From a virus, in IMG/VR virus record IMGVR_UViG_3300002835_000933, positions 1 to 26,476 of that record: 26,476 bases of DNA; one strand, given 5' to 3'. The notes beneath the pieces are model-generated. The model saw nothing but the letters and a program-made list of their open reading frames with translations. It ran no database searches and was not told the DNA's origin. Position 1 is the stretch's first letter. Each line of letters begins with the position of its first letter. The position numbers and the translations under genes are program-made. Shown one piece after another: positions 1-26,476 of the stretch.

Positions 1-203
1 TCACCATACATATTTACTTTAACACCAACGTGTCCTGCATCAACTCTTTCACATGAATTGAATAATACTACTAATAGGATAAATCCTAATACACCTGCAC
101 TAATTGCTTTTATCATTTTTTTTATTTTTAATTTTTGTTTTAATTTATATTCTTCAATCTCTTTTTGTCTTAGAGCTTGATAATCCGTATCATATACTGC
201 CAT
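1..203 (-). CDS. SPFH/prohibitin-like membrane protein, N-terminal fragment
   Basis: Partial: the frame is open through the left edge, so only the first 67 residues are visible. A charged N-terminal stretch of about 29 residues rich in Lys/Glu/Tyr is followed by one hydrophobic segment (about residues 35-50) and then CERVDAGHVGVKV, which resembles the start of prohibitin/HflC-type SPFH domains just after their membrane anchor. I chose the ATG at 203 because it lies one base after the stop of the preceding gene (TAA-T-ATG). An in-frame ATG at 116 would give a short signal-anchor or lipoprotein-like start (FNSC), and cannot be excluded. SPFH proteins form membrane-bound oligomeric rings; the role in a phage is unknown. 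The identification rests on about 15 residues. Confidence 0.6.
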   Translation of the reverse strand, partial: MAVYDTDYQALRQKEIEEYKLKQKLKIKKMIKAISAGVLGFILLVVLFNSCERVDAGHVGVKVNMYG

Positions 204-204
204 A

Positions 205-465
205 TTATTTTGTTTTAGGTTTACGTTTTGGTTTTACATTTGTAGGTTCAATTGGTTTAACTTCGTCTACTGATTCATCAGGACTCCAACCCCAATCATA
301 TAATGCTAAACCACCCCAAATGAGTAATAGTAAAAGGGCAATGCCACCTACTATATTAGCGAAAGTATCTGCCATTGTTAGACTGGGATACACTCCAAAT
401 TGTAATAACAACCATATTGTTATGAAAGTGAAGATTTGTTTTTTGTACTTTTTGATTTTATTCAT
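205..465 (-). CDS. Small two-helix membrane protein (holin-like topology)
   Basis: 86 residues. A Lys-rich N-terminus (NKIKKYKK) precedes a hydrophobic helix at about 11-29 and a second at about 37-57 with a run of leucines, then an acidic stretch and a very basic C-terminal tail ending in KPKRKPKTK. Both ends positive with two helices predicts both termini in the cytoplasm. Small phage membrane proteins of this shape include two-helix holins, but no endolysin is visible nearby, so holin is only one possibility. It sits between a hypothetical gene and the SPFH-like gene, whose start follows its stop by one base, suggesting coupled translation and possibly a shared membrane role. Confidence 0.7.
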   Translation of the reverse strand: MNKIKKYKKQIFTFITIWLLLQFGVYPSLTMADTFANIVGGIALLLLLIWGGLALYDWGWSPDESVDEVKPIEPTNVKPKRKPKTK

Positions 466-13422: not shown

Positions 13423-13911
13423 TTAGAATTCAAGTATTGCATAATCATAAGCTAACGTTAATGTAATCTCTGCAGGGTCATTTGATGTCCAATCTAACTC
13501 ACCGAATTGTGCGTTTAAGATAAATGCACCTTTAAGTTTCCAGTTTTCAATTTTATCACCTACTGGTCCTAACATATAGATATCGATATCTTTTTTGTAG
13601 AAATCTGCATATCCATCACGTCCTGTTAGGGATTCATGTGAAGTTCTAACCCACTCCATTACTGCCTGTGCACCTGATGGTACGATTGGGTCATATAATG
13701 TGATTTCTAAATCTTGCCATTCACCTTTACCTTTCAACTTTCTTTTTAAGTTGATGTGTTCTAATGTTACAGCTTCAAACTGAATGTTTGGTCTGTTACC
13801 TGCTTTGATAAGATATGAAGGGATACCAGCGATTTCCATGATGAAACGATTTTTCATCTTTGGTTCAAAGTTGGTATAGAACATTTCGTTAAACTCTAAT
13901 ATTTCTGCCAT
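13423..13911 (-). CDS. 19: Tail tube protein (gp19-like)
   Basis: 162 residues, almost the same length as T4 gp19 (163). The N-terminus (FEPKMKNRFIMEIAGIPSYL), the centre (WQDLEITLYDP) and the C-terminus (FGELDWTSNDPAEITLTLAYDYA) follow the pattern of T4-like tube subunits, which stack as hexamers to form the inner tail tube. It lies directly downstream of the sheath gene. It has a strong RBS, AGGAG, 8-12 bases before the ATG. A near-copy of the ten-base element (TATATTTATT) is 22 bases upstream. Two in-frame stops, TAA TAG, end it, followed by a strong terminator. These fit very high, separately controlled expression. Confidence 0.93.
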   Translation of the reverse strand: MAEILEFNEMFYTNFEPKMKNRFIMEIAGIPSYLIKAGNRPNIQFEAVTLEHINLKRKLKGKGEWQDLEITLYDPIVPSGAQAVMEWVRTSHESLTGRDGYADFYKKDIDIYMLGPVGDKIENWKLKGAFILNAQFGELDWTSNDPAEITLTLAYDYAILEF

Positions 13912-13965: not shown

Positions 13966-16278
13966 TTATGCTGAGAACGATGCTCCAGTCGGTAAGATAT
14001 TGAAATCTAACACGATGAATTCAGCGGTTTTTGTTGGTTGTAAGAAAATCTGTCCAGCCAATATATTTCTATCAATTACATCAGGAGTGTTATTACTCTC
14101 ATCCATTATTACTCTAAATGCATATAAACCTTGTCTTTGTTGAATTGCTTCTAAATAAGGGTTAACTGTATTTAAGAATCTTGAACGAGTGGTAGAAGTA
14201 TTTTGTTCGAATACTAAGTATCTTGATGTAGAAGCGATATACTTCTTAACTTTGATAAGTAATCTTCTAACATTGATTCTGTCTAACGCTGATGATTTTT
14301 CTTGTAATGTTTTCTGTCCAAATGCCACGATACCCTCGCCAGGGAAAGATGCGATAGGATTTATTTTTCCTTCGTATAATGTATCTCTCTCTGCGTGTGT
14401 TAATCTATTCAATACTGAAACTGCTCCTACGATTCCACCACGATTTAAACCAGCTGGTGCGAACCATTCTGCTGCAACCGCGTCATTTGCTGCGAAAATA
14501 CCTGGCATCAATACTGATGGCGGTACTGCAGTTAATCTGTTGGTGTTTCTATCGATTGTCTTTACCCACGGGTAGTAAGTACCTACATAGTTAGAATCTA
14601 CTGCTGCACCTTGTTCTACTGCTAAATCAATTGAATCATCTTGTGAAGTTACATCACCAATGAAGAATACATCTTCTCTATTCTCACACATTTCAGTTAT
14701 GTAATCAAACACATAAGAGTGATGTCTACGAACTATACCAGGTGCTGCGATTATGTTGATATCGAAATCATCAGGGTTAGATACCGCGTTGATTGCTTTT
14801 ACATATGCAACTGAACCACTTGAGATTGATGTTGCTAAGTTAAATCCTTGTGAATTACCTGATGATAAATCAGAACCTTTACTTGCTACTCTTGTTGGAG
14901 TTACACCATCAAATCCACCTTGAAACGCTAAAGTAAATTGTCTTTTAGCAATTGTTTCAGCAGTATCATCAGTTGATAATGTATAATTTAATTGAGAATC
15001 AAACGCAAAATCAACATTAGCACCTACTGTTGCTGATGATGGAATTGGTTTTAAGTATTGTAAGTTGTTTATCTTAGTTGTAGCAGTTTCTAAATCAATA
15101 CCAGAATATCTATATGTAGATGATGCGGTATTACTATCAGAAACTGTTGAATAAATAACTGCTGGAACTAATGTTTCAGTCCCACCCACATAAATTGGGT
15201 TGGTATATGCACCATGTCCAAAAGGTGCTGCTATAATAGGGAATGAACCCTCAGCTGCAACTTCTACTCTAATTAACTTAGAACGATTTGCATAATCACC
15301 ATTTTCATTTTGTTTACCATTTGCATCAATTGTTAAATTTCTATCACCAATTATTTTAGCAATATAGTTTGGAGATGCTGGGTCTAAGTTAACGTTATTA
15401 TATGTTTCTTTTACTGATTTTTTTCTATCTGTATCACTAAATCCACGAACTACTACTGAGAATGTTGCGTAATCAGTTGCACCAGATACTCCTGCTGCTT
15501 TAACATTAAAAATACTTACTTTATATTCAGTATTGTATGGGTTACCATCACCTAATGTATGGAAACGGAATAGGTCACTTCTAACACCACTAATTAATTG
15601 AGATTTAACCCACGGAGTAGATGCGTATGTTGTATCTTCAGTAAAAGCTTGTGTTGCTAATTCTAATATTTCAACATCTGCAGATGAACTTGCAAATGCA
15701 TCCGTTTTATCTGTTGCTGTTTTTTCAAAATAAGTGTAGGTGTATACCGATTTAGCTCCAAATGGTGATTCACCAAATACATCACTAATATCGTTTCCAT
15801 CTATTGGTAATACTGATGCAGAAACTGCACTTGAACCACTAACTATTATGGAAAAACTACTTGCACCTATCGGTGATGTAATTGTGGATGATGCAAAACC
15901 TGTACTTTCTTTATTACCAGTTAAGGTTGAATGTAAGGTTGCTACAATTTTTTTACCACCTTGTACTTCTGAACCACTTACTACAATTGCAAGAGGTGTT
16001 TCATGCGAATAACCACCTATGTGACCAACACGAACAATTGTTGCTGTTCCTGCTTCTCTTAGATAGTTTTGTACTGCGTACCCTGTATAGTATTCCCCAT
16101 CAGGTGTACCGAATATTTCTTCAAATTCTGATTGTGTATTTACGATAGTTGGTAAGAATGCTGGTCCTTTACTAAAAGGTCCTACTATTGCTGCTCCAAT
16201 TTCTCCGATACCCTGTGATAAAAATGATAAATCATTCTCTCTTGTGAATACACCAGGTGATACAATTTTTTCTGCCAT
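13966..16278 (-). CDS. 18: Tail sheath protein (gp18-like)
   Basis: 770 residues from the chosen start. VSPGVFTREND at the N-terminus and the C-terminal block (RINVRRLLIKVKKYI, then FLNTVNPYLEAIQQRQGLYAFRV and an I-F-L-Q-P-T-K-T-A-E-F motif) are the sheath signatures; the C-terminal domain carries the strands that interlock neighbouring subunits. It is longer than T4 gp18 (659), with Ser/Thr/Ala-rich material in the middle (about 105-400) that would lie on the outside of the tail. I chose the ATG at 16278, not 16314: AGGAG lies 8 bases upstream and the protein then starts MAEKIVSPG like homologues. The tube gene follows after 54 bases. Confidence 0.95.
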   Translation of the reverse strand: MAEKIVSPGVFTRENDLSFLSQGIGEIGAAIVGPFSKGPAFLPTIVNTQSEFEEIFGTPDGEYYTGYAVQNYLREAGTATIVRVGHIGGYSHETPLAIVVSGSEVQGGKKIVATLHSTLTGNKESTGFASSTITSPIGASSFSIIVSGSSAVSASVLPIDGNDISDVFGESPFGAKSVYTYTYFEKTATDKTDAFASSSADVEILELATQAFTEDTTYASTPWVKSQLISGVRSDLFRFHTLGDGNPYNTEYKVSIFNVKAAGVSGATDYATFSVVVRGFSDTDRKKSVKETYNNVNLDPASPNYIAKIIGDRNLTIDANGKQNENGDYANRSKLIRVEVAAEGSFPIIAAPFGHGAYTNPIYVGGTETLVPAVIYSTVSDSNTASSTYRYSGIDLETATTKINNLQYLKPIPSSATVGANVDFAFDSQLNYTLSTDDTAETIAKRQFTLAFQGGFDGVTPTRVASKGSDLSSGNSQGFNLATSISSGSVAYVKAINAVSNPDDFDINIIAAPGIVRRHHSYVFDYITEMCENREDVFFIGDVTSQDDSIDLAVEQGAAVDSNYVGTYYPWVKTIDRNTNRLTAVPPSVLMPGIFAANDAVAAEWFAPAGLNRGGIVGAVSVLNRLTHAERDTLYEGKINPIASFPGEGIVAFGQKTLQEKSSALDRINVRRLLIKVKKYIASTSRYLVFEQNTSTTRSRFLNTVNPYLEAIQQRQGLYAFRVIMDESNNTPDVIDRNILAGQIFLQPTKTAEFIVLDFNILPTGASFSA

Positions 16279-16309
16279 TTTATTTACTCCTATTAAGTTT
16301 GTGTAATGA

Positions 16310-16319
16310 TACACATATA
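16310..16319 (-). promoter_or_regulatory. Degenerate ten-base element before the sheath gene
   Basis: Coding strand TATATGTGTA, eight of ten matches to TATATTTATA, 31 bases before the ATG at 16278. Weakest member of the set. Confidence 0.3.
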
Positions 16320-16370: not shown

Positions 16371-16640
16371 TTATTCCGCGATTGGTGTGAATTCTCCCGT
16401 TGTAGGGTTGTAATCACCATCTCCGTATTTTTCATTTAAACCTTTAAATAAGGTTTCTTCTTTGATAACTAAATCCGAATGTTGTTTAGTTAATTCTATT
16501 TCTCTTTCTTCTAATTCTGACAATCTTCTTCTTTTTTCAATATGAATTTGTCCTAATTCAGTAAAAACAGCCCCAACTTCAATTCTTAATTCGTTGATTT
16601 GTTTGACCTCGTCTTCTGTAAACTTAATTTTTTCTGCCAT
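16371..16640 (-). CDS. Small coiled-coil phage protein upstream of the sheath
   Basis: 89 residues. A long charged helix with heptad-like spacing covers about 8-71 (LSELEEREIELTKQHSDLV), followed by a conserved-looking tail YGDGDYNPTTGEF. I recall similar small proteins in marine T4-like phages, without known function. It has its own TATATTTATA element (33 bases upstream) but no SD. Its first five codons (ATGGCAGAAAAAATT) are identical to those of the downstream sheath gene. It may be a minor virion or assembly protein, by position only. Confidence 0.75.
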   Translation of the reverse strand: MAEKIKFTEDEVKQINELRIEVGAVFTELGQIHIEKRRRLSELEEREIELTKQHSDLVIKEETLFKGLNEKYGDGDYNPTTGEFTPIAE

Positions 16641-16708: not shown

Positions 16709-17977
16709 TTATCTAGTAAATGTTAAAGTTGCATATGTTCCTGGAAGACCTTGGTCTATAGCTCTAACTCTTGCATACCATGTTCCTGCGGTTAATAGGG
16801 TGTTAACTTCTATATTCGCTTCACTCCATTCCGTAAAATTAATAGTAGGAGCTGAAAAGTCTGCATTTGCTGAAACTTGTACATCATATGCGGTAATACC
16901 AGCAGTTCCTACTGCCGTAGGTGCTACCCATGTTAAGAAAGGTGTTGCGTAGGTAAGAGAAGTTGGTGCACCTGGTGATGCTAAATCTGCGAATGAGTTT
17001 CCACCCTTATTGTGGGTTACATATCCATTTACTAAATAAGTATCCTCTTCTTCAACGTCAATTGATACAATTTCACTTGTTTTTACTACAACTTCGTTTG
17101 AATTAATTATTTTTTCAACTAAAACTCCACCTTCTGCTTTTAGTAATTTGTCATCGGTTGTAATTCTAAATATTTCTTTAAATTTATATAATCCATCTTC
17201 ACCATCTTTTACTAATAATGGATGTTCTGATGTTGCTGTTATTTCTCCATCATTAATATCATAATATTTTGATGAAAATGAGTATACTAATCCAACTACG
17301 GTTACTTCTTTTTCTGAGGTAACCAATTCATTTGTATTCCATGTATAAAACCCACCATCTAAATCTGGTGATAATCCATTTAATGAATACCCTTTTAATT
17401 TATCACCCTCTACTAAATCTCCTGCCTCAACTATTGAACCATCTGCTAAAGTAATAGGTGAATCAATTGTTAAACATAACGCGGTAGAGTTACCATCATA
17501 TGAATCTACGGAATAAACCGTTTTATCTTTATTTGTATTATATCCAGTAACGTGGTCGTTAAACCCATCAACAAATACACATCTAATCGTATTAGATTGT
17601 GCAGACATTAATGCTGTTTGAGCTCCTGGTGATTGTGGATTCATACTAGAAATTGAAAAAGTAGCAGTTACACCACTATTTGTTCCTAATGTTATATATG
17701 AACCTGCAGGAACACTCCATGTGAAGTTTGCTGCTCTACTACTAATTCTACCAAAATTTGCACCATCACCTGTAAAACCTAATGTATAAGTTTCGGTTGT
17801 AGATTCAACTGCGTAAGTGTATCCGGTTACAGACCCTACTGAATCAATTGCAAATGATGACATTGCTATGGGGCCAGTTGTATCTCCCTTAGCTGCTGAT
17901 AATGATTTTGTACCCTGTCCTGTTGCAGAACCTAAACTATTTAAACTTAGTGTATCGCCTGATGTTAGTGTTGCCAT
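16709..17977 (-). CDS. Fibre/adhesin protein with Hint (intein-like) self-processing domain and fibronectin III domain
   Basis: 422 residues. Residues 1-167 are beta-rich with phage-tail-like repeats (SLNSLGSATGQG). A Hint domain covers 168-323. It has C168 at the splice-type N-terminus (CLTIDSPITLADGS), block B T249-x-x-H252, and the C-terminal YLVNGYVTHN with H322-N323. No homing-endonuclease insert is present. Residue 324 is Lys, not Cys/Ser/Thr, so ordinary protein splicing is unlikely; Asn cyclisation and C-terminal cleavage, or N-terminal thioester chemistry, remain possible as in bacterial intein-like domains. About 334-422 resembles a fibronectin III domain (SPGAPTSLTYATPFLTWVAP, GTWYARVRAID). 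It follows the glycosyltransferase by 11 bases, with its own promoter-like element and RBS (AATAGGAAT). Likely a virion surface protein. Confidence 0.8.
   Translation of the reverse strand: MATLTSGDTLSLNSLGSATGQGTKSLSAAKGDTTGPIAMSSFAIDSVGSVTGYTYAVESTTETYTLGFTGDGANFGRISSRAANFTWSVPAGSYITLGTNSGVTATFSISSMNPQSPGAQTALMSAQSNTIRCVFVDGFNDHVTGYNTNKDKTVYSVDSYDGNSTALCLTIDSPITLADGSIVEAGDLVEGDKLKGYSLNGLSPDLDGGFYTWNTNELVTSEKEVTVVGLVYSFSSKYYDINDGEITATSEHPLLVKDGEDGLYKFKEIFRITTDDKLLKAEGGVLVEKIINSNEVVVKTSEIVSIDVEEEDTYLVNGYVTHNKGGNSFADLASPGAPTSLTYATPFLTWVAPTAVGTAGITAYDVQVSANADFSAPTINFTEWSEANIEVNTLLTAGTWYARVRAIDQGLPGTYATLTFTR
17009..17476 (-). other. Hint domain, Cys168 to Asn323
   Basis: 156 codons from the conserved Cys to the His-Asn pair: about the size of a minimal intein without endonuclease. 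The next codon (17008-17006) is Lys, then Gly-Gly. Confidence 0.8.
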
Positions 17978-17988
17978 TTATTTTATTC

Positions 17989-18987
17989 CTATTTGTTATA
18001 AATATCTAATAATGAATCAATCCACTTATTCTTATCCGTATATTTTTCAATCATATAAGTTTTTATAGTATTGAACCAATATAATTTTTCAGAATAAGGT
18101 AATGTAGTAATCTTTGTATAAATATCAAAAAATTCAGTTTTAGACGATACTCGATATGGATAATTTAAATCTTTACACCATGTGGTATGTAATATTGGTA
18201 ATTTACCCCTATCAACTGCTTCAAATATTGAATATCCAAAGGGTTCTGATATAAATGCGGAATGTGATATTCCCCAATCCATATCATAAAAAGTATCTTT
18301 AAACTCCGAATCATAATGATATAATTTTGATTTTGAAACATCTACCTTTACGCCATTTTTCCAAAGTAAATTAAATTCTTGTGAATTAGTAAAAATAAGA
18401 CTTGGTATTTTATCTAAATAGTGTGGATTTTTTCTACCTTCACTCCTTGCTGCGAATCCTAACTTATTAGATTTGGATAGTGGTAGATTCTTTTTAAATT
18501 CGTAAAAATTTGGTATATTGGTGTTTTTATAAAGTATTTCGTATAATCCTACCCATATATTATTCTCACACCAATCAGTAACCTCTTGTTCCCATTCTGA
18601 ACTCATATACGGATGATGTCCTATTGGTAAATCACTTCCAAATTGAGATTTTAGAATATGGTCTACTGAATTGTGTAATATATTTGAATGAATTTTATCT
18701 TTATTGTCTACAATCGGTTTCATTGGAGTATAATGTCCATGTAGAATATTAATTCTTCTAGCACCTTTACATAGTTCTTCAAATTTTTGAATATCTTCAC
18801 CATGCCAATAAGTTTCTATTGGAAATTGGTAATCTTCGTGTCCTTTGGGTTTGTTTCTATGAATAAGGAGAATTGGTTTAACATCTAATTTAGGTGCTAT
18901 TAATTCCATCCAAAGATTTACCCAAATATCAGAACCTGCGTTGACCCACGGCCCTCCACCTGTGGTATAATAAACATCATAAACCAT
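17989..18987 (-). CDS. GT-B-fold glycosyltransferase, GT4-like
   Basis: 332 residues. The N-terminus has a Gly-rich opening (YYTTGGGPWVNAGSD, 6-20), as in nucleotide-sugar transferases of the GT-B fold. GFAARSEGRKNPHYL (177-191) matches the donor-binding Arg/Lys segment, and E248-PFGYSIF-E256 is the E-x7-E signature of GT4-type enzymes. Family members transfer a sugar from a nucleotide donor to an acceptor. It begins 5 bases after the stop of the 624-residue fibre gene, so the two are probably translated together, and is followed by the Hint-domain gene. Glycosylation of the Ser/Thr-rich fibre proteins is a reasonable inference; host surface sugars are another candidate substrate. No membrane segment is visible. 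Confidence 0.75.
   Translation of the reverse strand: MVYDVYYTTGGGPWVNAGSDIWVNLWMELIAPKLDVKPILLIHRNKPKGHEDYQFPIETYWHGEDIQKFEELCKGARRINILHGHYTPMKPIVDNKDKIHSNILHNSVDHILKSQFGSDLPIGHHPYMSSEWEQEVTDWCENNIWVGLYEILYKNTNIPNFYEFKKNLPLSKSNKLGFAARSEGRKNPHYLDKIPSLIFTNSQEFNLLWKNGVKVDVSKSKLYHYDSEFKDTFYDMDWGISHSAFISEPFGYSIFEAVDRGKLPILHTTWCKDLNYPYRVSSKTEFFDIYTKITTLPYSEKLYWFNTIKTYMIEKYTDKNKWIDSLLDIYNK
17997..18006 (-). promoter_or_regulatory. GATATTTATA element before the Hint-domain gene
   Basis: Nine of ten matches to TATATTTATA; 19 bases before the ATG at 17977, overlapping the 3' end of the glycosyltransferase gene, followed by AATAGGA. Confidence 0.4.
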
Positions 18988-18992
18988 TTATA

Positions 18993-20867
18993 TTATTTTT
19001 TTATTATAATTAATCCAGCAAATACTCCAGCAAAAGTTATACTCAATGCATTAACCGAAGTTGATTCTATAATTGAAGGAACTTCCTGTCTTTTATTGGC
19101 AGTATTCCATGCTTGAACTATTGGATATTCTTCATTTAAACTATGTGTAATTGAATAAGTTGAATTACCACTAACTGTTTCCTTATATGTTGTTAATGCA
19201 GTTATTTGTGAAGAACCACTCACTAATCCACTTGGCGTTCCTGCTAAGTTAGCAAATGAAGTAGAACCACTTACTATATGACCACCTTTAGCAACTACTG
19301 CGTATCCACTTTGAGCGGATGATAATATTATTGTTGCAGTATTGTTATTAGTAAGGGTTACCGATGATGGTATTATTTGTGAATCATTTGTTCCATATAC
19401 TGAAACTAATACATTTTTAGTATTAAAGTTGTGTGTTACCGAAATAGTTGATTGTGTATCAAACGAAGATGTAACTGTTGCTACTTCTGCAATTTCAGTT
19501 ACTACGTTTGTAATACCACTACCATCTCCAACAAAGTATGATGCAGTGATTGCACCATTTGCTAAATTAATTGATTGACTTACTAATGATGACAGAATTT
19601 GGGTAGAAGATGATACGATATTACTTCCACCTAATATTTGGATTGACCCGGATATTAATGTTGGTAATGAACTAATTCCACTAAAAGTAATTTGAGATGA
19701 ACCTGATACAACGTTATCACCACTAGCAAGTAATATTTTTGATTCAGACCCACTTATTCCACTTTTCCAATAATCATTAGTTGAATCCCAAAGTAATGAA
19801 CCACTAATAGTAGAACCACCGGTTGAATCTTTTACTAATAACCCACCATTTGCTACACCTGTACCATTCAATTCAATAATATTATCACCTAATTGAATTG
19901 TAGTTGAATTTACGGAGGTTGTTGTTCCTCTAACTATTAAATCACCTAATACCACTACATTCGAACCTGTCAATTCTAAAGCGGTTTTGAGGGAGGATGT
20001 ATATGTGTTTAAAGATGCGGTTGATTCTTGTATTCTATCTAACTCATTATCAATTGAAGCAGTATAAGTTGTAAGGGTTGAGTTCTTAGTATCTTGTGAT
20101 TGTGTATACGAATTTAATGAACTCAATATACTAACTATCTGAGATGAACCACTTACTAACCCGCTTGGTTTATTTGTATGATTTGTATAATCTAAATAGT
20201 ATGAACCGGATTCGCCATTTAATTTATTTGAATCATCTGCAGAACCACTAACAATGTGGCCACCTTTAGCAACTACTGCATAACCACTTTGAGCGGAAGT
20301 TAATACTATTGTTGCAGTATTTAAATCCGTAAGAGTTACTGATGATGGGATTATTTGTGCATAATTAGAATCGTATACCGAAATAATTACATTTCGTGAA
20401 TTAAAATTATGACTAACTGATATGTTTGAGGAATTGAAAAAAGCGTAATTAACAGTTGCTACTTGAGATATATCTGATGCAGGTAAATTTGTTAATCCAC
20501 TTCCATCTCCACCAAATGAACCAGTGAAAGAACCACTAATAGTTCCTTCACCTAATGTATTTAAATATCTTGAATCTAATGAGGATGTTAATTGTGATGA
20601 ACCGGAAACCATTCCAGTCCCACCGAATGTTATTTGAGAACCATTTCCTATGAAATATGAAGCGGTTATGGCACCATTAATATTAAGAGAACCTGTTATT
20701 AGGGCATCTGTAACTACAATTGTTTGAATTGATGGTATTCCGTTATCTTTTTCAAAATATAACTTACCATCGTATGTATTTATCGCCAACTCTCCTAATT
20801 CAAGAGTGTCGGTTGTAGGAATTTTACCCTGAACAGCTGTTCTTTTTAGCTTTAATACTTGTGCCAT
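18993..20867 (-). CDS. Tail fibre protein with Mtd-like N-terminal domain and repeated beta modules
   Basis: 624 residues. The N-terminus (LKLKRTAVQGKIPTTDTLEL, then GELAINTYDGKLYF) is a common phage-fibre attachment-type domain, similar to the N-terminal domain of the major tropism determinant. It is followed by VSGSSQ-type repeats, two copies of a 75-residue beta module (about 135-212 and 460-540; each ends AQSGYAVVAKGGHIVSGS), a GDNIIELNGTGVANGGLLVK segment shared with the fibre gene at the right edge, and a degenerate third beta module as the C-terminus (ending GLIIIKK). There is no S74 chaperone domain, so trimerisation must rely on other parts. A terminator lies upstream; the glycosyltransferase follows 5 bases downstream. 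Receptor binding is inferred. Confidence 0.8.
   Translation of the reverse strand: MAQVLKLKRTAVQGKIPTTDTLELGELAINTYDGKLYFEKDNGIPSIQTIVVTDALITGSLNINGAITASYFIGNGSQITFGGTGMVSGSSQLTSSLDSRYLNTLGEGTISGSFTGSFGGDGSGLTNLPASDISQVATVNYAFFNSSNISVSHNFNSRNVIISVYDSNYAQIIPSSVTLTDLNTATIVLTSAQSGYAVVAKGGHIVSGSADDSNKLNGESGSYYLDYTNHTNKPSGLVSGSSQIVSILSSLNSYTQSQDTKNSTLTTYTASIDNELDRIQESTASLNTYTSSLKTALELTGSNVVVLGDLIVRGTTTSVNSTTIQLGDNIIELNGTGVANGGLLVKDSTGGSTISGSLLWDSTNDYWKSGISGSESKILLASGDNVVSGSSQITFSGISSLPTLISGSIQILGGSNIVSSSTQILSSLVSQSINLANGAITASYFVGDGSGITNVVTEIAEVATVTSSFDTQSTISVTHNFNTKNVLVSVYGTNDSQIIPSSVTLTNNNTATIILSSAQSGYAVVAKGGHIVSGSTSFANLAGTPSGLVSGSSQITALTTYKETVSGNSTYSITHSLNEEYPIVQAWNTANKRQEVPSIIESTSVNALSITFAGVFAGLIIIKK
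19264..19488 (-). repeat. Fibre beta module, copy B
   Basis: Second copy inside the same 624-residue gene; the 3' portion is nearly identical to copy A at nucleotide level as well. Bounds are approximate. Confidence 0.7.
20240..20464 (-). repeat. Fibre beta module, copy A
   Basis: About 75 codons (VSHNFNSRNVIISVYDSN, IIPSSVTL, then AQSGYAVVAKGGHIVSGS). Repeated at 19264-19488 and, more divergently, in the 214-residue gene. Bounds are approximate. Confidence 0.7.
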
Positions 20868-20910
20868 ATGTATGACTTACCAATTTCATTATATAATTAC
20901 TCGGTTATTT

Positions 20911-20940
20911 AAAAACCCCCTTTATGTAAAGAGGGGTTTT
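20911..20940 (-). terminator. Hairpin terminator after the S74 fibre gene
   Basis: Coding strand AAAACCCC and GGGGGTTTT arms, extended by CTTTA/TAAAG pairing with one bulged base, followed by a T-run. It lies about 16 bases after the stop at 20956. The stem is flanked by A/T on both sides and could also act on the other strand. Confidence 0.85.
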
Positions 20941-20955
20941 ATATGTCTTTTTTAT

Positions 20956-22257
20956 TTAGATTTTGTTTTCTAGAGAATTTACTTTAGAAGTTAAATCATC
21001 AATTTGTTTTTGTTGTTCTTTAATACCTTCTATTAATAAGGTTACTAATTTATCGTATTTAACTGCTTTGTATCCGTTTTCTCTTGTCTGAACTAATTGA
21101 GGTAATACTGCTTCAATTTCTTGTGCAATTACACCCACATCGTTTCCTTCGTATCCGTGCTCAGCTTTAGTTTCTGCTTTCCAATCGTAAGTGTTACCAC
21201 TAATCTTAGAAATCTTATCCAATGCGTTTTCGATTGGAACGATATTTTCTTTGAAACGAATATCTGAAGATGAGTAAGCAACGATATCATTGGTTGCATC
21301 AATTCTACCTGCAGTAGCAGATGCGGCCATTCCTATTCCTAAAGAAGTTGCAGTTGCTGCACCTATTATTGTATGTGAACCACTAACTTGTACTGAACCA
21401 GTGAATGAATGTGTATCGTTACTGAAATCACCAAATCTATTAGAACCACTACTGAATATAACTGATGCCGTTTCATTAATTGTTGTTAAATTAACAATAG
21501 TTAAATCTGTAATAGTAGTTCCACTCAATTGAGATGAACCAGAAACAATTCCTGCTGGTATTGAACCAACACTAGCATAAGTTATTTGAGATGAACCCGA
21601 AACTACACCATTAGTTGCGTTGATTGTACCATTAAATGATGTACCATTGAAAGTTGTACCTGTTATAGTACTATTTGAAGTAATCGAACCAGTTACTAAT
21701 AAATCATTTCCAAATACTATATTAGTTCCACCTGAACTTAAAAATTTAGATGTACCATCTTGCATGCTAACATTTCCTTTAACGGAAATTAAACCAGCAG
21801 TTGGGTCTAATAATATATCACCACCACCTGAAGATTTTAATTCAATGTCTCCATCGGCAGTTTGAAGTACAATATTATCAGTACCTAATTCGTTAAATTT
21901 AATTGATTGACCGGTGTCGGTTGTAAATATTAATTCTGTTGCATTTGATGATAATATTTGTGTTCCAGCTATGTAAAGTGATGCTGAAGATAGGTATAAA
22001 TCACGAAATGGTTTAGTTGCACTACCTAAATCTACGGTTAATGTAGTAGGTATTATATGTTTAGAAGTAGTTACCGAATCAGTACTTTGTGAAAATGGAG
22101 TACCATTAACAGTATTAAACTGAACTTGTGATGAACCACTTATTACACCATTTGTTGATGCAATTGAACCTGTAAACGCACCACCAGTTGGTAAGGTGAA
22201 AGTTGCACCATCTGCGAATGTTAGTGAACCTGAAATTATGGGACTATGTATTATCAT
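20956..22257 (-). CDS. Tail fibre protein with C-terminal peptidase S74 chaperone domain
   Basis: 433 residues. It begins abruptly with fibre repeats (SPIISGSLTFADGATF) and has no N-terminal attachment domain. VSGSSQ repeats and Gly/Ser/Thr-rich strands fill about 1-320. The last 103 residues are an intramolecular chaperone of endosialidase (S74) domain: S331-D-I-R-F-K336 carries the Ser and Lys expected for self-cleavage, followed by GNDVGVIAQEIEAVLP and a C-terminal coiled coil (EQQKQIDDLTSKVNSLENKI). Such domains assemble fibre trimers and then cut themselves off before the Ser. The gene has a TATATTTATA element 24 bases upstream and an AAGGA RBS. It may work together with the 214-residue attachment-type protein just upstream. 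Confidence 0.85.
   Translation of the reverse strand: MIIHSPIISGSLTFADGATFTLPTGGAFTGSIASTNGVISGSSQVQFNTVNGTPFSQSTDSVTTSKHIIPTTLTVDLGSATKPFRDLYLSSASLYIAGTQILSSNATELIFTTDTGQSIKFNELGTDNIVLQTADGDIELKSSGGGDILLDPTAGLISVKGNVSMQDGTSKFLSSGGTNIVFGNDLLVTGSITSNSTITGTTFNGTSFNGTINATNGVVSGSSQITYASVGSIPAGIVSGSSQLSGTTITDLTIVNLTTINETASVIFSSGSNRFGDFSNDTHSFTGSVQVSGSHTIIGAATATSLGIGMAASATAGRIDATNDIVAYSSSDIRFKENIVPIENALDKISKISGNTYDWKAETKAEHGYEGNDVGVIAQEIEAVLPQLVQTRENGYKAVKYDKLVTLLIEGIKEQQKQIDDLTSKVNSLENKI
20959..21267 (-). other. Peptidase S74 (ICD) domain, copy 1
   Basis: From the predicted catalytic Ser to the C-terminus; the central part is almost identical to copy 2 (22931-23233). Confidence 0.85.
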
Positions 22258-22281
22258 CTTTTGTTTTCCTTATTTATTTTG

Positions 22282-22291
22282 TATAAATATA
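22282..22291 (-). promoter_or_regulatory. TATATTTATA element before the S74 fibre gene
   Basis: Exact copy on the coding strand, 24 bases before the ATG at 22257, in the 42-base gap after the 214-residue gene. Confidence 0.5.
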
Positions 22292-22299
22292 TATTTTTT

Positions 22300-22944
22300 T
22301 TAAATTGAACCACCATCTATGTTTGTAATTGTTGTTGCATTTGCTGTTCCTGTCACATCTCCACTCAAAGTTATTTGAGCCGAACCACTAAATACACCAA
22401 GTACATTTACTTGATTTGTTACAGCCGTACTTAATCCAGTAACATTACCGGAATCAATCGAACCACTAACTATATGACCACCTTTTGCTACAACTACATA
22501 ACCACTTCTAGCAGATTCAAATGTAATTGTTATATTATTATTATCGGTATGTCTTAATGTTGATGGGATTATTTGGTATCCATCAGTATCAAACACTTGT
22601 GCAATTGCGTTAGGTGTACTCAAATTATGATTTACAACCCACGTAGATGATGCAGTAAATGTTCGTTGAACTGTTGCCGTTTGAGCAATTGTTACGTTTT
22701 CTAATGCACTACCATCACCTTTAAAGTACGAAGCGGTAATTGAACCAGTTATATTAAGGTTACCCGCTATAGCAGTTGCAGTATTAGTTGTTACTAATGT
22801 TTCTACGGAATCAACTGAACCGGATTTTCTAAAGAATACCTTTCCGTCTACAACGTTCATTGCTATCTCACCATATTGTAATGAGCCAGTGGTAGGTATA
22901 CTTCCAGGTGTAGTGGACCTTTTAAATTTAATTATTTGTGCCAT
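22300..22944 (-). CDS. Short tail-fibre protein with Mtd-like N-terminal domain
   Basis: 214 residues. The N-terminus (IIKFKRSTTPGSIPTTGSLQ, then YGEIAMNVVDGKVFFRKSG) matches that of the 624-residue fibre. One beta module follows (about 85-160, ending ARSGYVVVAKGGHIVSGS), then a short Gly/Thr-rich tail. It overlaps the end of the preceding fibre gene by 17 bases, so is probably translated by coupling. It looks like the attachment half of a fibre, with the distal half encoded by the next gene. It could instead be a complete small adaptor. There is no chaperone domain. Confidence 0.75.
   Translation of the reverse strand: MAQIIKFKRSTTPGSIPTTGSLQYGEIAMNVVDGKVFFRKSGSVDSVETLVTTNTATAIAGNLNITGSITASYFKGDGSALENVTIAQTATVQRTFTASSTWVVNHNLSTPNAIAQVFDTDGYQIIPSTLRHTDNNNITITFESARSGYVVVAKGGHIVSGSIDSGNVTGLSTAVTNQVNVLGVFSGSAQITLSGDVTGTANATTITNIDGGSI
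22465..22689 (-). repeat. Fibre beta module, copy C
   Basis: More divergent copy of the module at 20240 and 19264 (VNHNLSTPNAIAQVFDTDG, ending ARSGYVVVAKGGHIVSGS). Bounds are approximate. Confidence 0.6.
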
Positions 22945-25900
22945 TATTTTCTACTTTTGTTTTTAGTTCGTCTACTTGTTTTGTTAATTCTTTAATACCT
23001 TCTATTAGTAATGCTACTAACTTATCATATTTAACCGCCTTATAACCATTTTCACGGGTTTGAACCAATTCTGGTAATACTGCTTCGATTTCTTGTGCAA
23101 TTACACCCACATCGTTTCCTATATAAGTATTCTGTATTTCGCTATTCCATACAAAATTATAGCCACCAATTTTAGATATTTTTTCTAATGGATTAGAAAT
23201 AGGGCGAATATTGTTTTTTAATCTTATATCTGATGATGAATATGCAATAATATCACCGCCTGCATTTATACTACCACCCAATCCAATACCACCTGTTATT
23301 ACTAATGCACCCGTACCAGTTGTGATTGATGCAGTAGCATTTGTAATTGTAATTGCGTTTGATGTAGATGCACCTTGAGTAGTTACTTCTTGTAATGTTT
23401 TACTTACTTGTGATGAACCGGATATAACACCATTAGATGCTGATATTGCCCCATTAAATGATGTTGCTGTTGATGCACCTGTTATTTCGATTGAACCTGT
23501 TATTTTAACCGAACCTGTAAATTCATGTGTATCATTATTAAAGTCACCGAATTTATTTGAACCACTACTGAATATAACTGATGCGGTTTGATTAACACTC
23601 GTTAAGTTTGTTATAGTAAGATTTGCTATAGTAGTTCCATCTAATTGTGAAGAACCACTTACTATTCCAGCTGGGATAGAACTAATACCTGCATATGTTA
23701 TTTGAGAACTTCCACTTACCAATCCGCTTCCACCAAATAGTTGAGATGAACCTGATACAATTCCTCTACCTGTTGTTTCGTAGGATGAAGTTGCACCATT
23801 TAAATTTGAAATATGTGAATCAATCGATGCCGTATAAGTAGCAAGAGTTGAATTCTTAGTATTTTGTGAAGATGTATATGAGTTTAGTGATGTTAATGGA
23901 ATTAATCTAGCATCAACACCATTTGTGAAATGTGCAGAACCAGTATCTAATGTAAGAGTAGCTGAACCACTTTCAGCACCACCACTTAAACCATTACCCG
24001 CATTGACTGCAGTAATATCACCCGCTCCAGCCAATACCATTGCATCATCTACATATTCTTTAATAGCAAATGCGTTTCCTAATGTATTTGGATTACCATC
24101 TGCAATTGAAGATGATACGTGATAAAATGCTGCTGAGCCTAATGATGCTAATGTATTTGCACCTAATAGGGTGGCAAAAGATGCAGATGGTGCATATAAT
24201 AAATTATATGAACTTGATAATTGATTTGAACCACTAACTACACCAGTTGGTAATAATGATGGTATCTGTGAAGAACCACTAACTATGCCCGCCGGGATTG
24301 ATGTTAATGATGTATATACTACTTGAGATGAACCACTAACTACACCGGTTGGTAATAATGGAGTTACTTGAGAACTACCACTAATAATACCTGCGGAAAT
24401 TGATGATATATCACTATATGTTATTTGTGAACTACCACTAACTACACCGGTTGGTAATAATGATGCTATTTGTGAACTACCACTTATAATCCCATTACCT
24501 CTTGTTTCGTAAGATGAAGTTGCATTAATTAAAGATGCGGTTACATTTGATAATGTATCCCATTTTGTATCATTTGAACCACTATATGTTCCTAACGTTG
24601 TATTTTTAGTATCTTGTGAACCAGTATAAGAATTTAAATCACTTAATATACTTACGATTTGTGCAGATGATGAAACTACTGAATCACCATCAATCATTAA
24701 ATATCTTAAATCCAATGAACCTGTTACTTGTTGAGAACCACTTACTACGCCTCCTGGTAATAATGAAGTCACTTGTGCGGATGATGAAACTATCCCGTCT
24801 CCTCCAGCTAAAAGTATTTTTGATTCTAAATCTTTTTTACCACCTATCCAATAATCATTAGTTGAATCCCATAATAGAGAACCACTAATAAAAGAAGCAG
24901 CAGTGGGGTCTTTAACTAACAAACCACCATTTGCTACACCAGTACCATTTAATTCGATGATATTATCACCCAATACAATTGCAGTTGAATTAATTGATGT
25001 TTGTGTTCCTTCAACTATTAAATTTCCTTTAATCGTTGTAGTTGATGCCGCGTTTTCGCCAGTAACAGTTATTGCATTTTTTAAAGATTGGGTATACGAT
25101 AATACTGATGCAGATACATTTAATAGGGTTTCCCATTTAGTATCAACTGAACCGGTATATGTTCCTAATGTTGTATTTTTAGTATGTTGTGAACCGGTGT
25201 AAGAATTTATTTCCGTTATAGATATATCAACCGATGCCGATTTACTTTCTAAATTATCTAAACGAATATTACTTGAACCAGATGTTGTTTCTAAATTAGA
25301 TAATCTAATCAATGCACTACTACTAAACGTATTAAGTGATGCGGATGTAATTTCCAATTTATCCAACCTACCATCTAAACTTCCACTAATTGTATCAACA
25401 TATGTTTTAACTGCAAATTGAGTTGGAACTGTATCTTCACCTGTAATTCCTTGTGCGTTTAATAAAGTTGTGTTATTACTAACTTCATTTAATACAACAC
25501 CCACACCTACTCCATTTCTTTTGAATGGGCCGATTGCACTTAATCCTGATAGATTGAATTGATTTGCGTCAATTGTAACTTCTCCGGTTAATTGATTTAC
25601 TGCGAAGAAATCACCAATTTTTAAATTACCTATATTGTCAACTGTTGAATAAAATACTCTACCTGGAGCATATTCAACAATTTCTTTTGTTCTATTTGGA
25701 ACTCCACCGAATTTTGGAAGTGCGTTATATGTTACACCACTACCAACATATTCCATTACTAATCCACCCGTTGAGATGTTTGATAATTGGTGGAAATAAA
25801 CATTATTTCCAGTTGTAATTGAAGGTGGTGCAGGATAAACTGTTACATATCTTTCATTTGCCGAACTACCCGTTGCAACATTTGTTACTAAATAGTCAGT

Positions 25901-26476
25901 TCCGTTTAAAATCATATTTGAAGAAACATCCACACCTCTACTTCCACTTTCTAATTGGAATAATATTGCGGCAATACCACTAATATTTGCTTTACCTGCA
26001 ATTGTTGTAGCTTGAATTGCACCTGCACCTGTTGGTGCTGCTATTACAACATTTGGTTGAGATGTATATCCACTACCAGGAGTTAAAATTACAATTTCAT
26101 TAATTGAACCATTTGCATTAACAGTTGCTTCTGCAGTTGCTTGAACACTTGCTCCTCCGCCACTAATAGTCACACTTGCAACTGAACCCGTATAACCTGC
26201 TCCGTCTTGGTCAATAACGGCACCAACTACTGTGGATGTCAATGTTTGTAACGATGAGCCCGAATTATATGTTTGAGGGAAATATGTTTTAGATACTAAT
26301 CCTTCTTTACCAAAATCTATTACTGAATTTGAAATATTTGCAAAACCACCATTCGCTACTTTGAAACCATAAGTACAGAATGTAGTAAAGCAAGATACAA
26401 ATTGTGCATATCCTTTATTGATTACCAAGTGACCAGGTCCACCCTGATTAACTTGAGTAAATGCATCTGCTACAAA
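22928..26476 (-). CDS. Large tail fibre protein with C-terminal S74 chaperone domain, N-terminus outside the window
   Basis: Partial: the frame is open to the right edge, giving 1182 visible residues; the TTG at 26428 is not a real start. In order: a segment typical of T4-like fibre/beta-helix proteins (QFVSCFTTFCTYGFKVANGG); Gly-rich repeats (GSGYTSQPNVVI); a stretch close to cyanophage-type fibres (NIGNLKIGDFFAVNQLTGEV, FNLSGL); the GDNIIELNGTGVANGG module shared with the 624-residue fibre; about a dozen VSGSSQ-type repeats including a 34-residue tandem array; and an S74 domain (SSSDIRLK, then GNDVGVIAQEIEAVLPELVQ) with a short coiled coil. The S74 domain probably drives trimerisation and is then cleaved off. 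The next fibre gene starts 17 bases before its end. Confidence 0.85.
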   Translation of the reverse strand, partial: FVADAFTQVNQGGPGHLVINKGYAQFVSCFTTFCTYGFKVANGGFANISNSVIDFGKEGLVSKTYFPQTYNSGSSLQTLTSTVVGAVIDQDGAGYTGSVASVTISGGGASVQATAEATVNANGSINEIVILTPGSGYTSQPNVVIAAPTGAGAIQATTIAGKANISGIAAILFQLESGSRGVDVSSNMILNGTDYLVTNVATGSSANERYVTVYPAPPSITTGNNVYFHQLSNISTGGLVMEYVGSGVTYNALPKFGGVPNRTKEIVEYAPGRVFYSTVDNIGNLKIGDFFAVNQLTGEVTIDANQFNLSGLSAIGPFKRNGVGVGVVLNEVSNNTTLLNAQGITGEDTVPTQFAVKTYVDTISGSLDGRLDKLEITSASLNTFSSSALIRLSNLETTSGSSNIRLDNLESKSASVDISITEINSYTGSQHTKNTTLGTYTGSVDTKWETLLNVSASVLSYTQSLKNAITVTGENAASTTTIKGNLIVEGTQTSINSTAIVLGDNIIELNGTGVANGGLLVKDPTAASFISGSLLWDSTNDYWIGGKKDLESKILLAGGDGIVSSSAQVTSLLPGGVVSGSQQVTGSLDLRYLMIDGDSVVSSSAQIVSILSDLNSYTGSQDTKNTTLGTYSGSNDTKWDTLSNVTASLINATSSYETRGNGIISGSSQIASLLPTGVVSGSSQITYSDISSISAGIISGSSQVTPLLPTGVVSGSSQVVYTSLTSIPAGIVSGSSQIPSLLPTGVVSGSNQLSSSYNLLYAPSASFATLLGANTLASLGSAAFYHVSSSIADGNPNTLGNAFAIKEYVDDAMVLAGAGDITAVNAGNGLSGGAESGSATLTLDTGSAHFTNGVDARLIPLTSLNSYTSSQNTKNSTLATYTASIDSHISNLNGATSSYETTGRGIVSGSSQLFGGSGLVSGSSQITYAGISSIPAGIVSGSSQLDGTTIANLTITNLTSVNQTASVIFSSGSNKFGDFNNDTHEFTGSVKITGSIEITGASTATSFNGAISASNGVISGSSQVSKTLQEVTTQGASTSNAITITNATASITTGTGALVITGGIGLGGSINAGGDIIAYSSSDIRLKNNIRPISNPLEKISKIGGYNFVWNSEIQNTYIGNDVGVIAQEIEAVLPELVQTRENGYKAVKYDKLVALLIEGIKELTKQVDELKTKVENNGTNN
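22931..23233 (-). other. Peptidase S74 (ICD) domain, copy 2
   Basis: Predicted catalytic Ser codon at 23233-23231 in SSSDIRLK, with the Lys five residues later, as in copy 1. Confidence 0.85.
24229..24534 (-). repeat. 34-residue (102-base) tandem repeat in the large fibre gene
   Basis: Copies begin at about 24231, 24333 and 24435 (plus-strand CCACTAACTACACC then GTTGGTAATAATG), spaced exactly 102 bases. Each unit holds two VSGSSQ half-units joined by a Y-x-x-I-S-S-I segment and an LLPTG segment. More degenerate copies flank the array. Confidence 0.75.

Follow-up and report, generated by a model that had tools for sequence, protein, structure and literature searches.

A-type BILs cut themselves at one or both ends and splice to some extent. 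Those known mostly cleave rather than ligate (PMC4031507), and cleavage products dominate the reactions described for them (PMC7664689). Ligation of their flanks through a freed amine has been proposed (PMC4031507). In BIL2, from the BUBL1 polyubiquitin locus of Tetrahymena, the upstream flank is reported to be joined to lysine side chains as an isopeptide, and the acceptor lysine lies within the neighbouring ubl5 domain (PMC8616854). The window analysed here, a viral record 26,476 bases long, encodes on its minus strand a protein with a Hint domain of this general kind, placed between an Ig-like and an FnIII-like domain and followed by a lysine at +1. Its parts are the following.

16709..17977, minus strand: whole ORF of 422 residues, comprising an Ig-like, a Hint, and an FnIII-like domain (ORF list, three-domain relatives, and synteny)
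17477..17977, minus strand: N-terminal part, residues 1-167, with the Ig-like domain (about 40-160) and, at its end, the conserved linker DxYDGN...L-1
17489-17506, minus strand: linker DSYDGN, shortly before the scissile Leu-Cys
17009..17476, minus strand: Hint domain, residues 168-323, without endonuclease (TIGR01445 above cut-off and fold match)
17474..17476, minus strand: Cys168, the block A nucleophile at intein position 1 (invariance and alignment to residue 1 of solved inteins)
17222..17233, minus strand: block B, T249-S-E-H252 (conservation)
17009..17014, minus strand: block G, His322-Asn323 (invariance)
17006..17008, minus strand: Lys324, the +1 residue (invariance and codon changes on the tree)
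16712..17005, minus strand: C-terminal flank, residues 325-422, a flexible G-G-N-S linker and the FnIII-like domain

The original prediction had placed the Hint domain at 17006-17476, a span that corresponds exactly to residues 168-324 of the ORF, and all the residues it named were found (C168, T249-S-E-H252-P, H322-N323, and K324-G325-G326). It had also described a domain free of endonuclease and followed, after K324-G-G, by an FnIII domain. Only 156 residues extend from C168 to N323, the Pfam search detected no endonuclease among them, and the downstream part matched FnIII structures in the PDB.

The N-terminal half of the Hint domain (residues 168-256) matched the NCBIfam model intein_Nterm TIGR01445 with 31.6 bits (E = 2.5e-7; cut-off, 24.5), while Pfam gave an intein match below threshold only. 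In an AlphaFold model of the 422-residue protein, built from 21 relatives (mean pLDDT, 75.5), residues from about 163 to 328 adopt a Hint fold, with Z scores of 17 to 19 to Hint structures over 130 to 141 residues. The linkers at 157-166 and 325-332 have pLDDT values below 50, and the residues after 332 are mostly between 74 and 94. The top fold match was BIL2 (6y75; Z = 19.1, rmsd 2.1, 141 residues aligned), followed closely by the M86 and Ssp DnaB mini-inteins, matches within one Z unit being counted as tied; the Clostridium thermocellum BIL (2lwy; Z = 17.7) and Hedgehog (Z = 17.4) scored lower. A profile of the relatives also had BIL2 as its best match by sequence (E = 8.7e-5), and both BIL2 and some inteins scored better than the C. 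thermocellum BIL (E = 0.037). The prediction would have been contradicted by a fold that keeps Cys168 and Asn323 apart. In the alignments of the predicted model, Cys168 instead falls on residue 1 and Asn323 on the final residue of Mtu RecA intein structures (1..440), and by numbering the two correspond to C1 and N143 of BIL2, which places both at the catalytic ends. Profile alignment and conservation counts further showed that block F carries Ser305 and Asp312 at positions usually occupied by Asp and His, respectively.

Environmental phage relatives were collected by scans of viral contigs, in which E values are relative to the candidates only; their pairwise identity in the Hint region was at least 44%, and 107 distinct Hint sequences made up the conservation set. 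C168, H252, H322, N323, and K324 were each present in 107/107 and T249 in 106/107. Residues, fold, and invariance therefore agree on a Hint/BIL-type domain whose N- and C-terminal chemistry residues are complete and whose +1 position lacks Cys, Ser, or Thr, as had been proposed. It is very improbable that this domain is a structural spacer that has lost its chemistry: the replacements in block F (Ser305 and Asp312) would be in line with such a loss, whereas the catalytic residues at both ends are strictly invariant over a long divergence.

Conservation extends to the junctions. The tree spanned 13.35 substitutions per site, and the median column had 9 amino-acid changes, counted, like all changes given here, by parsimony on one tree of related sequences. 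K324 had 0 amino-acid changes versus 7 synonymous codon changes, and L167, at -1, was Leu in 107/107 sequences with 0 amino-acid changes versus 31 codon changes. In the linker before Cys168, D158, Y160, and D161 had no changes and G162 and N163 one each. The survey of the HN-K-G-G motif suggested by the original prediction gave HNK in all 107 sequences; the next residue (+2) was Gly in 101 and otherwise E, D, or Q, and from +3 onward the residues were increasingly free. The invariance of Lys324 was not built into the collection, since two of the search patterns excluded the HN-K site and a third contained HN without the K. Since AAA and AAG both occur at this codon, the constraint acts at the amino-acid level, and a nucleotide-level cause was rejected in view of the synonymous changes. 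The +1 lysine had been seen simply as a missing nucleophile; this stands in so far as there is no Cys, Ser, or Thr there, but the invariance says that Lys itself is selected. The fixation of Lys324 argues that this residue has a role of its own: the amine chemistry proposed for A-type BILs should tolerate nearly any residue at this position, and the jumbo-phage relatives described below do vary there. The fixed Leu at -1 and the nearly fixed DxYDGN linker suggest, at the level of sequence, that both junctions matter. This linker is nearly invariant although it is flexible in the predicted model; docking or metal binding would be possible roles.

Both the Ig-like and the FnIII-like flank are present in full-length members, and the flank from the Lys onward has 97 to 111 residues in every relative. 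Modelled alone, residues 1-167 reached a pLDDT of 88, and residues from about 40 to 160 resemble the Ig-like parts of T5 pb6 (Z = 8.1) and lambda gpV (Z = 7.3), which are the best PDB matches at modest Z scores. This resemblance of predicted folds may reflect only a common arrangement.

Our main reading, with a probability of about 0.45, is that this Hint domain is fixed in the protein, processes itself in the manner of A-type BILs, sits between two surface-type domains that fold independently, and uses an amine of Lys324 as the acceptor that joins the two flanks. The residues needed for an N-S acyl shift at Cys168 and for cyclisation of Asn323 are complete, and we infer from them the reaction, the order of its steps, and its product. 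Cys168 would take the carbonyl of Leu167 as a thioester, Asn323 would cyclise and cut the Asn323-Lys324 bond, and Lys324 would resolve the thioester with an amine, either the alpha-amine released by the cut or, before or after that cut, the amine of its side chain. The Ig-like and FnIII-like parts would thus be joined without the Hint domain, and hydrolysis into separate pieces would compete; the change in block F (Ser305 and Asp312) could slow one of the steps. We count in favour of joining that K324 is fixed although the residues from +3 onward vary and +2 may be Glu, Asp, or Gln, that ligation through the freed amine has been proposed for A-type BILs (PMC4031507), and that BIL2, a close structural match, makes its isopeptide with a lysine side chain (PMC8616854). 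The invariance of Lys324 adds an intramolecular, lysine-accepting outcome that was absent from the earlier reading. In one form of this outcome, Lys +1 would stand in as nucleophile for the Cys, Ser, or Thr of inteins: its side-chain amine would take the Ig-like domain from the Cys168 thioester in cis, giving an isopeptide bond, and cyclisation of Asn323 would free a spliced product with the Ig-like domain on the side chain of the N-terminal lysine of the FnIII-like domain. We regard this specific product as quite unlikely. Against joining, we count that the alignment to BIL2 does not extend into Lys +1 and that the BIL2 acceptor is the lysine in ubl5. A BIL2 crystal chain extended to a Lys at +1 was considered and is unsupported by the alignment.

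More distant relatives of the Hint domain were found in jumbo phages: NCTB, Dickeya AD1, Erwinia SNUABM_32, Yersinia fHe-Yen9-02, and the uncultured LR756508. Several of them are annotated by their depositors as tail or virion structural proteins. Their Hint domains lie at the very C-terminus of the protein, with 2 to 10 residues after the Asn; they have Gly at -1 where this position is alignable, and A, T, V, or K at +1. The Hint protein of LR756508 ends in HNKH, and its block B reads SASQ and so lacks the His. Three Hint proteins are encoded in a single tail cluster of phage NCTB; one is a stand-alone Hint domain of 153 residues ending in HNKVD (L034 2768-3229). Since the jumbo relatives share Asp at the block F His position, this Asp is not tied to Lys +1, and the idea of a lysine kept only for pairing with Asp312 was rejected, because these relatives keep the Asp while +1 varies. 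The variable +1 also counts against joining. Judged from these sequences, the fixed Lys +1 is mainly a trait of the present phage lineage, and the wider Hint group does not depend on it.

These relatives bear on the main rival outcome, in which the protein is only cut, at Asn323 and perhaps by hydrolysis at Cys168. The Ig-like, Hint, and FnIII-like parts would then come apart, and Lys +1 would be kept because it either is needed as the N-terminus of the FnIII-like part or speeds the cut. The prevalence of cleavage among the known A-type BILs (PMC4031507, PMC7664689) speaks for it, as do the jumbo relatives, whose C-terminal Hint domains have no following domain to ligate. By itself, however, cleavage leaves the fixation of Lys in 107 sequences unexplained, and jumbo relatives with the same block F Asp have A, T, or V at +1. 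We consider it somewhat unlikely that cleavage is the whole outcome.

The Hint gene lies in a tail region, also on the minus strand, whose other genes are the following.

13423-13911, minus strand: tail tube
13966-16314, minus strand: tail sheath
16371-16640, minus strand: 89-residue protein, between the Hint gene and the tail sheath
17989-18987, minus strand: 332-residue protein adjoining the Hint gene
18993-26428, minus strand: tail-fibre-like genes
20956-22257, minus strand: tail-fibre-like protein with a C-terminal Peptidase_S74 chaperone domain

The order 332-residue protein, Hint protein, 89-residue protein, tail sheath, and tail tube was found in about 150 loci, wherever the contig reaches. 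This neighbourhood makes it plausible that the Hint protein is of the fibre type, as originally proposed; the release of its FnIII end, a covalent link to another molecule, and an adhesin role, put forward in the same prediction, are hypotheses. The Peptidase_S74 protein is a second type of self-cleaving module within the same tail region. The 89-residue protein occupies the same place in the approximately 150 loci, yet it had no match among annotated phages. The 332-residue protein is very highly conserved, for instance at YTTGGGPWVNAGSD and EPFGYSIFEAVDRGK, the latter resembling by eye a GT-B glycosyltransferase motif, and it had no significant match in Pfam, PHROGs, or the PDB. In the 484-kb uncultured phage LR756508, a homologue of this protein (35.8% identical) adjoins the Hint gene as well.

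This conserved neighbour is one of the points for an attachment in trans, the second of the outcomes originally proposed. Here the Cys168 thioester would be attacked by another virion protein, a glycan, or a host-surface molecule through an amine or hydroxyl group, and the Ig-like part would become anchored there. BIL2, the closest solved match, offers a precedent, since lysines of other proteins receive its upstream domain (PMC8616854), and the C-terminal Hint domains of the jumbo phages would have little else to do. For such a transfer, the Lys at +1 of the same chain would have no need to be invariant, and no partner molecule was found; we hold this outcome to be unlikely.

No version of the protein without the Hint or the FnIII domain was found among the approximately 150 loci or the 50,697 phage records searched. 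When profiles of the N- and C-terminal domains were run against all ORFs of the collected loci, they recovered only Hint-bearing members and two insignificant matches, and the N-terminal domain had no match in the 50,697 phage records. One scan of cellular genome contigs gave no relative, and the Hint protein of the 484-kb phage had none in the viral contigs. The pre-sheath genes of Microcystis phage Mel-JY01 and Flavobacterium phage immuto, the closest cultured phages by their sheath, are not homologous to the Hint protein, and our literature searches found no paper describing this phage family. The constant position and the absence of any Hint-less member from these searches indicate a fixed component of a phage tail-region locus rather than a mobile intein. 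Taken together, the protein would most probably process itself, either by reaction at both junctions with an amine of Lys324 as acceptor or by plain cleavage. An active domain would make it a particle component that processes or ligates itself, and would be a natural means of joining proteins in which the acceptor is neither a thiol nor a hydroxyl. The family bears on the domestication of Hint domains as fixed parts of virion proteins, and on whether phages, too, use lysine acceptance, which is so far known from a ciliate.

The protein can be set against several described Hint systems. Class 1 mini-inteins share the fold, Cys1, TxxH, and HN, whereas the phage domain has no Cys, Ser, or Thr at +1, no intein-free allele was found for it in the collections above, and its junctions lie in linkers rather than inside a conserved enzyme site. 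B-type BILs lack an intein-like block G, and the invariant HN sets the phage domain apart from them. The Hog domain of Hedgehog has no C-terminal Asn and is followed by a sterol-recognition region, while polymorphic-toxin pretoxin Hint domains are followed by a toxin domain; the phage protein has HN and then an FnIII-like domain, with no toxin domain found. The jumbo-phage domains share detectable sequence similarity and the block F Asp, and differ in the -1 and +1 residues, in their terminal position, and in having no FnIII domain after them. BIL2 (6y75, 6tmm) is the best match by fold and by sequence profile and likewise lies between independently folded domains, but its flanks are ubiquitin-like, its host is a ciliate, and it is activated by zinc, whereas the phage flanks are Ig-like and FnIII-like. 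With the A-type BIL of C. thermocellum (2lwy), the phage domain shares the Hint fold, Cys1, the block B TxxH, the C-terminal His-Asn, the lack of Cys, Ser, or Thr at +1, the lack of an endonuclease, and a host protein of the variable surface type; it differs in its fixation in a tail-region phage gene, in the strictly conserved Lys at +1, and in Asp312 in place of the block F His. In its fold and catalytic motifs, the domain fits an A-type BIL except for the invariant Lys +1 and block F (Ser305/Asp312), and among domains of the A-type BIL/Hint kind it stands out by a strictly selected lysine at +1 in a phage tail-region gene.
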